Positions 16,847 to 23,515 of a DNA stretch of 64,000 nt are shown here, in pieces (position 1 is the stretch's first letter; the number at the start of each line of letters is the position of its first letter). Source of the DNA: Pricia mediterranea (GTDB lineage Bacteria; Bacteroidota; Bacteroidia; Flavobacteriales; Flavobacteriaceae); the NCBI RefSeq assembly GCF_032248455.1, contig NZ_JAVTTP010000001.1:2106501-2170500 (forward strand), written 5' to 3'. Both the position numbers and the translations under genes were made by a program. Below the pieces are notes generated by a model. It saw nothing but the letters and a program-made list of their open reading frames with translations. It was not told the DNA's origin and did no database searches.

Positions 16847-18043
16847 TTACTTTTCAAAAAAACTGATTGAAGAACCGACCCAGGTTTCATTGCTTTGGTG
16901 CGAAACGTTGATCATTTCACCCTTGCTCAGCCGGGTCAGGTTGATGACAGGTTTGAATTGGTCTTCCCCTTCGCTCCATATGTATAGCATACGAAGTTCG
17001 ACCTTTGAATTTTTTTCGGTATTCGTCTTCACCAGGGAGGCGTACTTCACCTTTTGCTGCAAAATGTAGTTCTGCTTGTCATCAATAGCATCAATGGTCG
17101 CTTGGTCGGGATGCAAGTTTACGCCCTGGCCTGCAAATGAAAATAGGGGTTTCAATACATAGTCCTCCAAATTCAGGCCTTTGGGATAGTCGGTCAAATA
17201 ATAGGACGCCGGTACATTCTTGTGCTTCAGCAACGGCATGATACATTTCGAGATGACAAAGAACCAATCGGGATGGGTCACCCATTGCACATCAAGATCA
17301 TCGCTTAAATTGAAGGCAAGATCAAGGTTTTCGTTACGTTGCAGCTCGTCGAAAATGACCCTATTATAGATACGGTGGATGGGTATCTTCTCGCCGTCTT
17401 TTTCGTAGAACAGCTTTTTGCCCTCCTTAATAACCTTCGTCATACAGACCGTTTCGATACCCAGGGCTTTTTCCGTCGCCCAAAAGTCGATACGCGTTCT
17501 TTGTTTTTCGGGGTACAACTCCAGTAAAACGACATTCTCGGGGCTCTCGTGCCCCAGAATAACTTCCCTGATTTCTTTCCGATAGCTTTTATCGTCCAAG
17601 CCGCTGAAATAGTAATCGAAACCCTCTTTCGGCAGGTTCGGATAGCATTTGCGAAAGGCCTTCCCCAAAAAAGGTTGGTAGAAGAACAAGGTCGGGAACG
17701 CTTGGAGTTCGATAAGTTGCGGCGTTATCCCCCCCCGACCGTCATCGCATAGTCCGAAATCAATGGCCAAAAAATGGGGATGGCCCATCGGCTGTGGGGC
17801 CTGTAGTTCGTTCGGGACGAACCTATCCCTCACTTGCTGAAAATCGATTGCCGATAATTGTTCGATTATGGAATCGCAAGCGGAAAACATCCTTTTACCG
17901 AGGGTCTGATCGATGAAAACGGGGGTTTCCGAAATCCGGAACGCACTGGGCGCGGAAAAGGTATCTTCTACATGTTGCAACAAGTTTTCGTAATATTCCT
18001 GTTTGAACTCCTCATTGAAATTTTTCCGGGTATCTGGTATCAT
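16847..18043 (-). CDS. ATP-grasp-like ligase of uncharacterised type
   Basis: 398 aa, soluble. The C-terminal third carries ATP-grasp-like features: YVLKPLFSFAGQGVNL (Lys plus glycine loop), NYILQQKVKY (adenine-binding hinge position), and VELRMLYIW. The N-terminal two thirds contains FLAIDFGLCDDGRGGITPQLIELQAFPT, with conserved acidic and aromatic residues of unknown role. The overall style recalls circularly permuted ATP-grasp amidoligases such as glutathionylspermidine-synthase-like enzymes, but I cannot name a substrate. Its start codon overlaps the stop of the amidotransferase gene (4-base overlap), so the two are co-translated and probably work on the same molecule. Confidence 0.55.
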   Translation of the reverse strand: MIPDTRKNFNEEFKQEYYENLLQHVEDTFSAPSAFRISETPVFIDQTLGKRMFSACDSIIEQLSAIDFQQVRDRFVPNELQAPQPMGHPHFLAIDFGLCDDGRGGITPQLIELQAFPTLFFYQPFLGKAFRKCYPNLPKEGFDYYFSGLDDKSYRKEIREVILGHESPENVVLLELYPEKQRTRIDFWATEKALGIETVCMTKVIKEGKKLFYEKDGEKIPIHRIYNRVIFDELQRNENLDLAFNLSDDLDVQWVTHPDWFFVISKCIMPLLKHKNVPASYYLTDYPKGLNLEDYVLKPLFSFAGQGVNLHPDQATIDAIDDKQNYILQQKVKYASLVKTNTEKNSKVELRMLYIWSEGEDQFKPVINLTRLSKGEMINVSHQSNETWVGSSISFFEK

Positions 18044-18876
18044 ACGGACTGCAGTTTATTCTTTCCGATGGCCGCAGCGGCCAACATAAGAAAACGGGGA
18101 ATTATGGTATGGTTGGTCTTCATGATTTTTTCGTCATCGACCAACTGTTCCAACATATTGAGGTACTTTCTTTTCCCATATTTCTTAATGATCTTGTTTC
18201 GCTTTTCCTCTTTTTTAAAATGCCGCAGCATCCCTTCCGAGTCCGCCTCTGGATGAAACTGCACCCCGAAAATCTCCCTGCTGTACCGAATGGCCATAAC
18301 CGCCCTTTCCAGGGGTACATGGGGACGCACCTTTTCCCTGCAAAGCACTTTGCCGTCCAGGGTATCCAGCTTCCATTCCGCGGGGCCGACTACTTGGTAG
18401 TCCCTTGAATCCACCGCAAAAAAGGGATTGGCCAGTCCTTCGAACAAGGTCTCGTGCTCCCCGCTTTTGGTTTTGAATATAGGATAAATACCGAAAGATG
18501 TCGAACGTCGTTTGGAAACCTTGGCCAAATCCCAATGCACGCAGGCCAACTGAAAGGAATGGCAGATTAAAAAAAGATGTTTTTTATTGGGTTTTGAGAG
18601 GTTGTGCAATAGAAGACCATCCAAAAACCCAAAATACTTGTACTCCCATTCCGCACCGCTCACCAATGGCGATCCGGGCCCTCCGGAAGAGAGAAAGATA
18701 TCGAACTCATCCAAAAGCGGAACTTCCCCCTTAACACGTACGTCGAACACTTCATAGTGCCCCTGCATTCCGTCTTGCGCCAAAAAATCGCCCGCCAACA
18801 TCTTAAGGCATCGCATGCCTTCGTTCGGCTCCCCGGCGTTCATGTCCAATAGCGCTATTCTTATTTGAGAACTCAT
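18040..18876 (-). CDS. Class I glutamine amidotransferase-like protein
   Basis: 278 aa. The catalytic triad is intact: Cys105 in FLICHSFQLACVHW, His208 and Glu210 in GVQFHPEADS. The oxyanion-side motif FLSSGGPGSP is also present. The residues after 220 form an extra basic helical tail not found in simple GATases. Such stand-alone domains either deliver ammonia from glutamine to a partner or hydrolyse gamma-glutamyl amides. Coupling to the downstream ligase by a 4-base overlap and to a YbdK-like ligase upstream argues for a role in the same amide-forming or amide-breaking cycle. Confidence 0.8.
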   Translation of the reverse strand: MSSQIRIALLDMNAGEPNEGMRCLKMLAGDFLAQDGMQGHYEVFDVRVKGEVPLLDEFDIFLSSGGPGSPLVSGAEWEYKYFGFLDGLLLHNLSKPNKKHLFLICHSFQLACVHWDLAKVSKRRSTSFGIYPIFKTKSGEHETLFEGLANPFFAVDSRDYQVVGPAEWKLDTLDGKVLCREKVRPHVPLERAVMAIRYSREIFGVQFHPEADSEGMLRHFKKEEKRNKIIKKYGKRKYLNMLEQLVDDEKIMKTNHTIIPRFLMLAAAAIGKNKLQSV

Positions 18877-18984
18877 GATTTCTTTTCATTGACAATTGCG
18901 ACCGAACTGAAGCAATCTGCTTCATAACGTAGAAAGCCACAATGGATTGTTTCGCTTTTCCATCTTCACTTCAAATATTCGCAA

Positions 18985-20082
18985 TTACAGTCCCTTACGC
19001 GTCTGCTCTACGATATATTTGGCCACTTCGGACAGATCCCCGGTTTCTTCAAAGACTTTCAATTGTCGATCGGCTCCCGAACCCTGCTCCAACATCTGGT
19101 AGACGTAGTTCACCTCAGGGCGGCATCCGAGGTCATCGACCACATCGTCGATAAATTCCAAAAGCTCGTTCATCAACTGGTTGAAAGGAACCTCCTCTTC
19201 CTTACCAAAGTCGATCAGTTTGGCCTCTACGCCCCAGCGCGCGGCACGCCATTTGTTCTCGTTCAGGAGCAGGCGGCGGTAGTTCTTAAAGGTCTGGTTC
19301 TTTTGGTGCAGCTTGTGCAGTTTGGCCACGATACATTGCATCAGGGCCGCGATACAGGTCACCTCGTCGACTGTCATTACCACGTCGCAGATCCTGAACT
19401 CTATCGTGGGATAGAACGGATGCAGACGGATGTCCCACCAAATTTTCTTGGCATTATCGAGACATCTGGTCTTGACCAAAATCTCCACAAACTTGTCATA
19501 CTCCCCGACACTGCTGAAAAACGGCGGTATGCCAGTTCGTGGAAACTTGTCGAACACCTTGCTTCGGAACGATTTAAAGCCGGTCTCCCGCCCCTCCCAG
19601 AAAGGACTGTTCGTAGAGAGTGCGTAAAGATGCGGTAAAAAATATCGGGCCACGTTCAATATTTCCAAACCTTCTTCGCGACTGGGAATGGCCACGTGTA
19701 CGTGCATTCCGAAAATCAGGTTGCCGCGGGCAACATCTTTCATCTCTTCGACAATCTCATCGTATCGGGGATTCGAAGTAATCAGTTGCTCGTGCCAAAA
19801 GGAGCTGGGATGCGTACCCGAGGCCGCCACTTTGAGTCCTTCCCCATCGGCCAGTTTAATGATCTCTTGCCTGAGATACGAGACCTCGTCCCTCACCTGA
19901 TTGATGTTCTCACATACATTGGTGCCCATTTCCACCATCGACTGGTGCATTTCTTCCTTGATCCGTTCTTGCAACAATACCTTACCTCCATCAATGATCT
20001 TCGACATCTGCGAACGCAATTTGAACGTATCGCCGTCGAGCACCTGGAACTCTTCCTCAATACCTAATGTGAATTTATGCAT
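18985..20082 (-). CDS. Carboxylate-amine ligase, YbdK/GCS2 (COG2170) family
   Basis: 365 aa. Glutamine-synthetase-fold amidoligase related to glutamate-cysteine ligase. Motifs: GIEEEFQVLD (metal-binding glutamates) at residue 7, VEMGTNVCENI, AASGTHPSS, GMHVHVAIPS, STNSPFWEGRETG, and PTIEFRICDVVMTVDE. All positions expected for ATP/metal binding are kept. The family catalyses ATP-dependent amide formation on a carboxylate; E. coli YbdK shows weak gamma-glutamylcysteine ligase activity. Preceded by the basic-tailed ATP-grasp gene (27 bases) and followed by the amidotransferase, all on one strand. Confidence 0.88.
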   Translation of the reverse strand: MHKFTLGIEEEFQVLDGDTFKLRSQMSKIIDGGKVLLQERIKEEMHQSMVEMGTNVCENINQVRDEVSYLRQEIIKLADGEGLKVAASGTHPSSFWHEQLITSNPRYDEIVEEMKDVARGNLIFGMHVHVAIPSREEGLEILNVARYFLPHLYALSTNSPFWEGRETGFKSFRSKVFDKFPRTGIPPFFSSVGEYDKFVEILVKTRCLDNAKKIWWDIRLHPFYPTIEFRICDVVMTVDEVTCIAALMQCIVAKLHKLHQKNQTFKNYRRLLLNENKWRAARWGVEAKLIDFGKEEEVPFNQLMNELLEFIDDVVDDLGCRPEVNYVYQMLEQGSGADRQLKVFEETGDLSEVAKYIVEQTRKGL

Positions 20083-20109
20083 GATGGTGGTTTCGTGTGA
20101 ACGGATAGG

Positions 20110-21294
20110 TTATTTGCTCTTTTTGGCGGAGCTTTTGCCCCGAATTTTCCCTTTGGCCGGAGCTTTTGCAGTTGATTTATTTGCCGCGGCGGACTTCGAT
20201 TTCGCCGCTGCCTTAGGTTTGACAGGAGCTTTTCCGGAGTCTGTTTTTTTCTTCGTGGTAGTTGTCCTTTTTCTGGTCGCTGCGGCTTTTTTGACCTCAT
20301 CGGCAGTCTTCAGGTTGACCTTGCCTCTTTTGCGACCGGCCGGGGAAATCGAATTTTTAACAAAGCTGCCCCAAGAGGTATTATTCTGTTTGGCCTTGTG
20401 CGTTTCTGCCTTTTCGATAGCGTATTTGGCGGAGTGCTCCACGATCCAATCGAAATTTTCCTGCCCTACGGAGTGTACATCCGCATCGGGAGCGGGGTTG
20501 CAGAAGTCGATGGCATAGGGAATTCCATCCCTGACGGCGAATTCCACCGTGTTGAAATCATACCCGAGGGCCTGATTCAATTTCAGGGTATAGTCATGTA
20601 CCTTTTCCAATAATTTTTTCCGTTCTTCGCCCGTAGCCTTGATTTCACTGACGTAACGCTCGTGAAACGGTTTTCTGGGATCGTAGGGCATGATATGCAC
20701 GTATTTTTGACCAAGACAGTACACGCGGAAATAATCGTCGAAAACAATTTCTTCCTGCAACATCATCACCAACTGACCGGTTTCGGCATGACTGGCGAAA
20801 AGGGAATCGGGATTTTCGACCTTATATACATCTTTCCATCCTCCGCCATCAAAAGGCTTCATATAGGCGGGAAATCCGATGTAGTTAAAAATATAGTCCC
20901 AATCCAGAGGTCCGGCCAGGTTACGGAACGATTTCTCGGTCGTATCGTCAGGCCTGACGTTCGAGGGCAGCAACACCGTCTTTGGTACGGGCACACCCAA
21001 CTCCATGGCCAAACAGTTATTGAAGAATTTTTCATCGGCACTGAACCAGAACGGGTTGTTGATGACCGCCGTACCCATGAGGGCGGCGTTCTTCAAGTAC
21101 GAACGATAGAAAGGCACGCCCTGGGACATACGGTCGATGATGACATGGTAACCGTAATCGATACCTTGTTGCACCTTGTCGATCTTCACAGGTTCGGCGA
21201 CGACCTTACCGTTGCCCAATTCGTTCACTTTGTCTATAAAAGCCCAAGGAAAGGTGTCTTCCTGACCAAATATTATACCTACTTTTTTTGCCAT
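20110..21294 (-). CDS. RimK-like ATP-grasp ligase with a lysine/alanine-rich tail
   Basis: 394 aa. Residues 1-310 are an ATP-grasp ligase: FPAYMKPFDGGGWKDVY (phosphate-binding loop), VMMLQEEIVFDDYFRVYCLG (hinge and following strand), FNTVEFAVRDGIPYAIDFCNPAPDAD (metal-binding acidic and Asn residues). The family makes amide bonds between a carboxylate and an amine. Residues 311-394 are a disordered basic tail of repeated K, A, T, S and P resembling a histone-H1/HupB-type tail (GRKRGKVNLK, TKKKTDSGKAPVKPKAAAKS, ending AKKSK). The tail could bind nucleic acid or polyanions, or could be the amine-rich substrate itself. Leads into the YbdK-like gene on the same strand. Confidence 0.78.
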   Translation of the reverse strand: MAKKVGIIFGQEDTFPWAFIDKVNELGNGKVVAEPVKIDKVQQGIDYGYHVIIDRMSQGVPFYRSYLKNAALMGTAVINNPFWFSADEKFFNNCLAMELGVPVPKTVLLPSNVRPDDTTEKSFRNLAGPLDWDYIFNYIGFPAYMKPFDGGGWKDVYKVENPDSLFASHAETGQLVMMLQEEIVFDDYFRVYCLGQKYVHIMPYDPRKPFHERYVSEIKATGEERKKLLEKVHDYTLKLNQALGYDFNTVEFAVRDGIPYAIDFCNPAPDADVHSVGQENFDWIVEHSAKYAIEKAETHKAKQNNTSWGSFVKNSISPAGRKRGKVNLKTADEVKKAAATRKRTTTTKKKTDSGKAPVKPKAAAKSKSAAANKSTAKAPAKGKIRGKSSAKKSK

Positions 21295-21505
21295 AATTTT
21301 TAGAGTGTGTTTGTTATTCCCGAATAATCGGGAGTTTCTTTAATTTGTTTGCTCTCTGTTGCGGTAAGGGTTCAAAGTTTCATTGCTACTTCGTAGCTCT
21401 TCAAGGTTTAAGGTCGATACCTTTCAAACCTTGAACCTTGAAGCCGCCGAGGCGGAATTGAACTTTATAGCGTTTCGGGACCGATCTTCAACTATGGGCG
21501 GCAGC
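21295..21505. other. Gap with an imperfect hairpin upstream of the ATP-grasp gene
   Basis: 211 bases, AT-rich. It contains TCAAGGTTT (21401-21409) and AAACCTTGA (21426-21434), a 9-bp inverted repeat with a 16-base loop, plus a further ACCTTGAAG copy beside it. It could terminate the esterase transcript upstream or be a regulatory hairpin. No exact promoter consensus was found. Confidence 0.35.
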
Positions 21506-22216
21506 TCAAAAAAGCTTGTCAATATACTCCGGGAACATCATTTTCCAGAGCGGCCAATCGTGCGGCGTCCATTTTTTTTCATCGTACCAGTGGTCTATTC
21601 CCTTGGCTTTTAGAATGCCGGACATGTGCAGGTTCTTGTCCCTACAAATATCCCAATCCGACGTACCAAGCACGATTTGCATATGATGGTACTTCCATCC
21701 CTCTTCATTTTGCATAAACTCATCGGGACAATTATAATAAATTCTCATATCGTCGCTTAGCTGGGCCATGTTGCGAATGTTGAAAGCGGCGCTCATGGCG
21801 ATCAGATGCGAAACCAGGTCGGGAAAGCGAAACGCCGTGTTCGCGGCGTGAAACCCACCGAAACTTACCCCGGCAACCGCTATGCGATGGGTATTGCATT
21901 CGTTCTGAATATACGGAATCATTTCGTTCCGCAAAAACTGCATGTACAATTCGTAGTTGTGAATCTTCTCTTCGGTGATCATGTGGTCGTGATAGAACGA
22001 CAGCATATCCAAAGTCTCGATATTGTACAACTTGATGCGCCCTTCCTCCACAAATTTCATCACGGCCCCGGTCAGTCCGAAATCCGTATTTTGGGTGAAC
22101 TGGCCGCCCGAAGAGGGAAACATCAATATAGGATGCCCCCAATGCCCCGTCACCTCCACATTGATATTGCGGCCCAAGGTGTTGGAATAATAAGGTATGT
22201 GCTCGGTTTTCGCCAT
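21506..22216 (-). CDS. Esterase-like alpha/beta hydrolase
   Basis: 236 aa, cytoplasmic (no signal peptide). Alpha/beta-hydrolase fold with the nucleophile S118 in VAGVSFGGFHAAN, an oxyanion-region motif MFPSSGGQFTQN, an acid candidate in GTSDWDICRDKN, and the His candidate in TPHDWPLWKMMFPEY. It belongs to the putative-esterase/EstD-like group. It is on the same strand and directly upstream of the ATP-grasp gene, so I treat it as part of the amidoligase cluster, where it could hydrolyse the product or an ester intermediate. Substrate unknown. Confidence 0.8.
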   Translation of the reverse strand: MAKTEHIPYYSNTLGRNINVEVTGHWGHPILMFPSSGGQFTQNTDFGLTGAVMKFVEEGRIKLYNIETLDMLSFYHDHMITEEKIHNYELYMQFLRNEMIPYIQNECNTHRIAVAGVSFGGFHAANTAFRFPDLVSHLIAMSAAFNIRNMAQLSDDMRIYYNCPDEFMQNEEGWKYHHMQIVLGTSDWDICRDKNLHMSGILKAKGIDHWYDEKKWTPHDWPLWKMMFPEYIDKLF

Positions 22217-22340
22217 GTCTTGAAAATAATCTAAATATAGTAGTCCTTAGCGGATTAAGGCGGTAAAAGTAAAATATTTTCTAAGACAACGTGCTATAAT
22301 TTGTTGGATTCGCTATACTTGCAGGTTTTTAGCGATTTCT

Positions 22341-23153
22341 ATGCAGTTTCAATTCGATTTTATAAGCGCCAAGGGCCGTTTTGTTTCCAAACATTTAGAC
22401 CGGATCGTCAGCTTTCGCTTTATGGCACCTGCCAATTACTGGGAAACGGACCTCAAGTTTCCCGTGCTTCTTATGAACGATGGGCAGGATTTTACAGCCA
22501 TGAAGCTCGAAAAGACCTTTTCGGAGGCCTACACTTTAAATTCCATACGCCCCTTTGTGTACATCGGACTGGAATGTAACCAAAACCGTATGCACGAATA
22601 CGGCACGGCATCCTCGGCCGATTTCAAGGGACGCGGCGGTAGGGCCCTCGAATATTCGAGATTTGTCATCGAGGAGTTTATCCCCTTTCTTAAAAAGGAT
22701 TTCAAGGTTTCTTCGGAAGGAATGGATTGGGTGTACTGCGGGATGTCCTTGGGAGGATTATCGGCCTTCGACATCGGCTTTCGACATTCAGACATTTTTG
22801 GGAAAATAGGCGTTTTCAGCGGCTCGTTCTGGTGGCGAAAGAAAGCCTACGCAAAGAAGGATGTCGCCGACCGCAGCCGCATCTTGCTCGATGTCATTAA
22901 AAATGCGAAAAAGGCGCCGCATCTAAAATTTTGGCTGCAGACGGGCACGCAAGACGAAAAGGCCGATCGCAACAACAATGGCGTAATCGACTCCATCGAC
23001 GACACCCTTGACGTCATCAAGGAGCTCCGAGCCAAGGGCTATTCGTACCCGGGGGATATCACCTATGTCGAAATCAAGGGCGGCAAACACGACCTTCCCA
23101 CCTGGGGGAAGGTTTTTCCTCAGTTCGTTTTATGGGCGTTCGGAAAGGCTTAG
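22341..23153 (+). CDS. Esterase-like alpha/beta hydrolase with an EF-hand-like loop
   Basis: 270 aa, no signal peptide. Second putative esterase, divergent from the one at 21506-22216. Nucleophile S136 in YCGMSLGGLSAFD; His candidate in IKGGKHDLPTW; NDGQDF near the N-terminus is the usual esterase-D oxyanion motif. Between strand and helix there is DRNNNGVIDSIDDT (about 214-227), which matches the calcium-binding EF-hand/dockerin loop pattern D-x-N-x-N-G-x-I-x-x-x-D. It is unusual to find this inside an esterase, though cytoplasmic Ca2+ use is not certain. Convergent overlap of 4 bases with the DUF2237 gene. Confidence 0.78.
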   Translation: MQFQFDFISAKGRFVSKHLDRIVSFRFMAPANYWETDLKFPVLLMNDGQDFTAMKLEKTFSEAYTLNSIRPFVYIGLECNQNRMHEYGTASSADFKGRGGRALEYSRFVIEEFIPFLKKDFKVSSEGMDWVYCGMSLGGLSAFDIGFRHSDIFGKIGVFSGSFWWRKKAYAKKDVADRSRILLDVIKNAKKAPHLKFWLQTGTQDEKADRNNNGVIDSIDDTLDVIKELRAKGYSYPGDITYVEIKGGKHDLPTWGKVFPQFVLWAFGKA

Positions 23154-23515
23154 TGCTTATACTCCAACAAAGTCTCAAAATCAGTATATTCCAACGCCTT
23201 TTGATGGGTGGCCTCCAATACAATTTGCGGGGCCTTGCCCGCTTTTTCGGCTTCGAGCCAACGGGAGATGCAGAGACACCACTTGTCGCCCGGTTTCAAG
23301 CCAGGAAACTGCCATTCCGGTCGGGGCGTGGAAAGGTCGTTGCCTTTGGATTTTGTGTACTCCAAAAATTCGGGGGTCATAACGGCGCAGACCACATGGG
23401 TGCCGATGTCTTGGTCACCTGTCTTGCATAGCCCGTCGCGGTAGAAGCCCGTTATCGGGTCGAGGCAACAAGGCTGTAATTCGTTACCCAATACATTCAG
23501 CAGGTTTTTATCCAT
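23150..23515 (-). CDS. DUF2237 family protein
   Basis: 121 aa, soluble, function unknown. Typical features: NVLGNELQPCCLDPITGFYRDG, CKTGDQDIGTHVVCAVMT, FLEYTKSKGNDLSTP and the C-terminal GDKWCLCISRWLEA. The conserved cysteines (C16, C17, C30, C43 and the CLC motif) suggest metal or redox chemistry. The family is common in marine bacteria and cyanobacteria. Its own promoter lies just upstream (23537-23544), so it appears to be a single-gene unit. Confidence 0.85.
   Translation of the reverse strand: MDKNLLNVLGNELQPCCLDPITGFYRDGLCKTGDQDIGTHVVCAVMTPEFLEYTKSKGNDLSTPRPEWQFPGLKPGDKWCLCISRWLEAEKAGKAPQIVLEATHQKALEYTDFETLLEYKH

Follow-up and report, generated by a model that had tools for sequence, protein, structure and literature searches.

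The five genes at positions 16847-22216 of the window (the whole 64,000-nucleotide stretch of the Pricia mediterranea genome that was analysed) form an amidoligase operon that has been kept together as a unit in relatives, and support for this conservation is strong. A preliminary description made from the sequence alone had presented it as an uncharacterised amidoligase cluster, and with its genes conserved together in relatives it keeps that name. As to function, the moderately supported reading, which we hold with middling confidence, is that the operon encodes a self-contained set of cytosolic enzymes that make and salvage a small peptide or amide of non-ribosomal origin, of gamma-glutamyl type and following a glutathione-like logic. 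This reading draws on the folds of the ligases, on the active-site residues that are kept, on the conservation of the five genes, on the co-occurrence of the two ATP-grasp ligases ATPg1 and ATPg2, and on the peptidases that recur with them.

Gene organization

In the 4.57-Mb genome that carries the window, the cluster consists of five ORFs on the minus strand, whose coordinates were checked against the sequence. The operon's first gene, Est1 (21506-22216, 236 aa), encodes an alpha/beta hydrolase of family PF00756 and is followed by ATPg1 (20110-21294, 394 aa), an ATP-grasp ligase of Ddl/LysX/RimK fold with a basic C-terminal tail, by GCS2 (18985-20082, 365 aa), a YbdK/COG2170 carboxylate-amine ligase of the PRK13515 family with the glutamine-synthetase fold, by GAT1 (18040-18876, 278 aa), a protein of class I glutamine-amidotransferase fold, and by ATPg2 (16847-18043, 398 aa), an ATP-grasp ligase with the glutathione synthetase/GspS/YgiC fold. 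The reading frames of GAT1 and ATPg2 overlap by 4 bases (18040-18043). This overlap of the last two genes had already been reported, and the extent first given for the five same-strand genes is correct to the base.

A second PF00756 esterase, EstE (22341-23153, plus strand), is divergent from Est1 at a distance of 124 bp and is counted in the set, its divergent placement being kept in Maribacter-type, Chitinophaga and Cytophagales loci. Judging from the sequence, the 124-bp intergenic region (22217-22340) is likely the promoter region of both genes. EstE is adjoined by a DUF2237 protein (23150-23515), a placement kept within the same genus. According to sequence analysis, the spacer between Est1 and ATPg1 (21295-21505) contains hairpins and a dispersed repeat, without a conserved gene. 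The repeat (21330-21480), with strong predicted hairpins (z -3.0), has 10 further partial copies in the genome at 73-87% identity. A search for a graspetide precursor among ORFs of at least 60 aa found no conserved one in the operon, and the spacer harbors only short ORFs without known relatives. The comparison of neighbours across loci brought out no conserved extra gene family in the operon.

Folds and active sites

The profile searches suggested by the preliminary description matched the esterase family PF00756, the GCS2 family PF04107 and the GATase family PF00117, left ATPg1 without a Pfam match and gave for ATPg2 only a sub-threshold match to GSP_synth (21.3 vs a cut-off of 29.3). GCS2 matches PF04107 at 1.7e-63, stands above the NCBIfam cut-offs of both PRK13515 (530 bits vs 371) and TIGR02050 (302 bits vs 176), and matches YbdK in the PDB. 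In Est1, the nucleophile Ser118 lies within GVSFGG, and S118, H219 and D220 are invariant in an alignment of 8 sequences.

ATPg1 matches the NCBIfam model rimK_fam at 1.4e-5, and its predicted model (pLDDT 80 over the whole chain and about 90 for the greater part of the core, with a disordered tail) resembles Ddl, LysX/ArgX and RimK in fold comparison. The tail (about residues 320-394, window 20110-20340) is Lys/Ala/Pro-rich, basic and histone-H1-like. That this ligase is basic-tailed had been recognised at the outset, and it holds in the Pricia, Maribacter and Eudoraea relatives, where the tail measures 66-128 residues with about 30% K+R; its length is variable, being shorter in some Cytophagales, and the tail is missing in many other relatives. 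The predicted model of ATPg2 reaches a pLDDT of 94, and Foldseek returned as its top match 3n6x (7e-14), together with human GSS (3e-12) and YgiC (3e-12); among the proteins that the model resembles are also a putative glutathionylspermidine synthase, YjfC, the ligase Cp1B and glutathione synthetases of eukaryotes. With YgiC the TM score is about 0.57-0.61 at 18% identity, and a weak sequence match extends over the nucleotide-binding part. From this model comparison, the former label of a second ATP-grasp-like ligase is sound as far as the ATP-grasp is concerned and is amended to a glutathione synthetase/GspS fold.

GAT1 falls just over the cut-off of PF00117 (24.6 bits vs 22.8). Its Cys105-His208-Glu210 triad is intact and, like C105, S107 and Q109 of the nucleophile elbow LICHSFQ, invariant in 30 sequences; the usual elbow of class I GATases is GxCxGxQ. 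For none of the three proteins ATPg1, ATPg2 and GAT1 did the searches bring up a close homologue that has been characterised, a point that counts against the make-and-salvage reading.

Conservation and co-occurrence

When species genomes were scanned, at least 586 relatives of ATPg2 came up, and the 80 best were retained. In 80 of the 88 loci examined, the order and strand of all five genes are the same; the other 8 are truncated by a contig end or contain fewer of the genes. In order-level relatives this order and strand are kept and the tested flanking genes differ. The arrangement is more than chance, since it persists in so many loci and, at the level of the order, in relatives whose flanking genes are not conserved. 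The preliminary description had made its proposal hang on neighbours conserved together in related genomes, which is what the gene-neighbourhood survey found. Among the carriers of all five genes are cultivable species of Chryseobacterium, Elizabethkingia, Hymenobacter and Maribacter and cultivable Spirosoma-related species.

Among the genomes of 60 relatives, 9 have ATPg2; all 9 have ATPg1 as well, for which a tenth genome gave a marginal match. Across 393 sampled Bacteroidota genomes, ATPg2 is present in 115, ATPg1 in 135 and both in 111 (Fisher p 7e-68, ignoring phylogeny), and the two co-occur even when they lie apart on the chromosome, for example in genomes G085 and G101. Of the 53 genera represented by close relatives, 5 have the cluster, as do 75 of 175 genera of the phylum sample, a distribution that bears out the opinion, voiced from the first, that this is not a housekeeping locus. 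A housekeeping tie to the riboflavin synthase and pdxA genes nearby was rejected, since only loci of the Maribacter/Pricia group show this linkage. Plasmid carriage was looked for and none was found. Further points against the make-and-salvage reading are that stand-alone copies of ATPg2 occur beside unrelated genes and that the cluster has no transporter or regulator as a regular companion.

Variant clusters in other lineages

A block made of EstE, an M17 aminopeptidase and ATPg3, the third ATP-grasp ligase of the system, adjoins the five genes in most Weeksellaceae-type loci and in a few loci of Flavobacteriaceae; outside the Weeksellaceae type it was noted in L015, L017 and L093. Altogether the M17 aminopeptidase lies in or beside the cluster in 45 loci. 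The window's genome has no close ATPg3 and no M17 protein anywhere, so the M17 part of the extra block has not been relocated elsewhere in it.

In four distant clusters (L157, L172, L174, L175) an M29 aminopeptidase occupies the position of GAT1, and in some others GCS2 and ATPg2 are direct neighbours. Because of this M29 substitution we read GAT1 as a peptidase rather than an ammonia donor, and no obvious ammonia acceptor partner was seen in the cluster; the evidence suggests a peptidase, so that of the two roles first offered for this GATase, amide-cleaving or ammonia-delivering, the former is favoured over the latter. A further group (L194, L195, L200, L201) is ordered Est1, ATPg1, a CP_ATPgrasp_2-like protein, GAT1 and an esterase, in some cases followed by ATPg3, without GCS2 and ATPg2, and individual members miss one or other gene. 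Its CP_ATPgrasp_2 protein (L194:8643-10058) matches 3n6x, which is also the top fold match of ATPg2. Of the tagging systems that combine a circularly permuted ATP-grasp with alpha-E and transglutaminase proteins, the CP-ATP-grasp families PF04174 and PF14403 gave no Pfam match among the window's proteins, CP_ATPgrasp_2 being found only in the distant variant cluster. Taken together, the M29 protein in place of GAT1 and the CP-ATP-grasp clusters devoid of GCS2 and ATPg2 indicate that ligases and hydrolases are retained as a set and that individual enzymes are swapped.

Other neighbours were recorded in passing. In one distant family, histidine ammonia-lyase is encoded directly after ATPg1 (L206:8650-10185, L208:8726-10231), and an Amidohydro_3 protein directly precedes ATPg2 in the same family and in one other (L155:7957-9426; L156, L158, L159, L169, L171); neither neighbour was counted among the evidence. 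An ArgD-like aminotransferase lies after or near ATPg2 at L054:11210-12418 and in about a dozen other loci.

Discussion

The question arises as to what such a set of enzymes could make. GCS2 would most likely couple an amine to a carboxylate that it activates, probably the one at the gamma position of glutamate; ATPg2 would then put an amine-bearing unit on the free carboxylate of the dipeptide, in the manner of glutathione synthetase and GspS, and ATPg1 would add or supply a further unit. GAT1, as a thiol peptidase of gamma-glutamyl type, and the esterases, as hydrolases, would recycle the product, a task of which M17 or M29 aminopeptidases may take part in other lineages. The genes with their families, folds and active-site residues, their conservation and their co-occurrence are observed; the sequence of reactions, the gamma-glutamyl bond and the action of GAT1 as a peptidase are what we infer. 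Since GCS2 is replaced by a CP-ATP-grasp protein in one group of loci, the gamma-glutamyl step may not be universal. The build-and-remove logic advanced in the preliminary description fits well with ligases accompanied by peptidases that recur in or beside the cluster. The literature searched named no substrate for the system.

Other scenarios can be drawn from the same genes. In 8 loci, most of them from Cytophagales, the gene directly after ATPg2 encodes an ArgD-related aminotransferase of class III, and in a few more this gene is nearby, which recalls amine utilization of the Puu kind: GCS2 would gamma-glutamylate a diamine or an omega-amino acid, the aminotransferase would act on it and GAT1, which presumably shares its general fold with PuuD, would remove the glutamyl cap. 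We consider this unlikely, for two or three ATP-grasp ligases and the esterases would be left unexplained, and in the window's lineage the comparison of neighbouring gene families found neither aminotransferase, oxidase nor aldehyde dehydrogenase conserved beside the cluster.

The neighbourhood of Chryseobacterium-type loci invites another explanation, namely a side system of nitrogen storage, tied to cyanophycin, that would make or salvage beta-aspartyl or gamma-glutamyl dipeptides. In these loci (L013:11701-16392 and about 25 others) the cluster is bordered by cyanophycin synthetase cphA (TIGR02068, 1271 bits), cyanophycinase and a beta-aspartyl-peptidase homologue, and homologues of the latter also lie near the cluster in L016, L183, L194 and Hymenobacter loci. 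Against this, cphA, which adjoins the cluster in Chryseobacterium-type loci alone, is convergent to it and outside the operon, and it is present in 21 of 115 cluster genomes, barely over expectation (Fisher p 0.05, phylogeny uncorrected); moreover, the window's genome has no cphA, on which ground a dependence on cyanophycin was rejected for this genome. As a general account we hold it to be distinctly improbable.

One may also think of an auxiliary thiol system whose product would be a cysteine-containing analogue of glutathione, the esterases acting on thiol esters. The family PF00756 also includes S-formylglutathione hydrolase, and the pairing of GCS2 with a glutathione synthetase-fold ligase, the GATase-like peptidase, the M17 aminopeptidase of relatives and the PF00756 esterases all accord with such a product; however, neither Est1 nor EstE matched the S-formylglutathione hydrolase model in the NCBIfam search, and the bacillithiol enzyme BshC is encoded in 382 of 393 genomes, that of the window included, so that a second thiol is not needed. 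With BshC nearly universal in the phylum, the operon is not the main thiol pathway, its replacement of the main thiol was lowered among the candidates, and we give the auxiliary role little credence. We give just as little to the tagging of proteins or RNA-associated targets, in which the basic-tailed, RimK-like ATPg1 would add amino acids to a macromolecule and peptidases would remove them: the RimK/LysX/Ddl fold and the histone-like tail of many species speak for it, but the tail is missing from many relatives that retain the operon, neither a carrier protein nor a conserved ORF of at least 60 aa was found in the operon, and the characterised ligases of glutathione synthetase fold have small molecules as substrates.

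Returning to the make-and-salvage system, ligases that are conserved with matching peptidases point to the intracellular synthesis and recycling of a small metabolite. More tentatively, and with somewhat more doubt than belief, it is tempting to hypothesize that a pathway extending across the Bacteroidota leads to an intracellular metabolite not described so far, either a peptidyl-amine or a glutathione-like peptide of three or four residues, built by up to four ATP-dependent amidoligases from two fold superfamilies and handled by dedicated peptidases and esterases. The identification of this metabolite would bring to light a new compound, or else a known compound in a new role, and would assign a function to several large unnamed enzyme families.

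Comparison with known systems

The closest parallel is the synthesis of glutathione and glutathionylspermidine, which, like the cluster, combines a GCS-type ligase with an ATP-grasp ligase of GSS/GspS fold and may involve a GATase-like turnover peptidase. Compared with glutathione synthesis, the cluster has an extra ligase of Ddl/RimK fold and two esterases, and the window's ligases fail the models of the true glutathione and glutathionylspermidine enzymes (TIGR02048, 62 bits vs 249; GSP_synth, below the cut-off as reported above; GshB, no match). For YbdK, PMC2588565 cites a gamma-glutamyl:cysteine ligase activity (Lehmann 2004), and the same article describes a GCS2-sized proteobacterial ligase family, encoded beside a GATase-like thiol peptidase, for which the synthesis of glutathione or a related peptide is predicted. 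That family resembles the cluster in that a carboxylate-amine superfamily ligase and a class I GATase-like peptidase are encoded side by side; it is set apart from GCS2, and the passage describing it mentions no ATP-grasp ligases or esterases. The E. coli proteins YgiC and YjfC are peptidylpolyamine synthetases with peptide-spermidine ligase activity (PMC12568646) and share the fold of ATPg2, but the identity to YgiC is as low as stated above and ATPg2 stays under the cut-off of GSP_synth. A RimK-type ligase reported from a Maribacter proteome (PMC11036162) was set aside, as it belongs to a polysaccharide utilisation locus and not to the operon. Finally, PMC4431377 states that linked ligases often perform successive ligations toward peptide metabolites, and its summary of Iyer et al. 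2009 lets us liken the operon to the amidoligase operons of those authors, which embody the same concept of linked ATP-grasp and COOH-NH2 ligases accompanied by peptidases.
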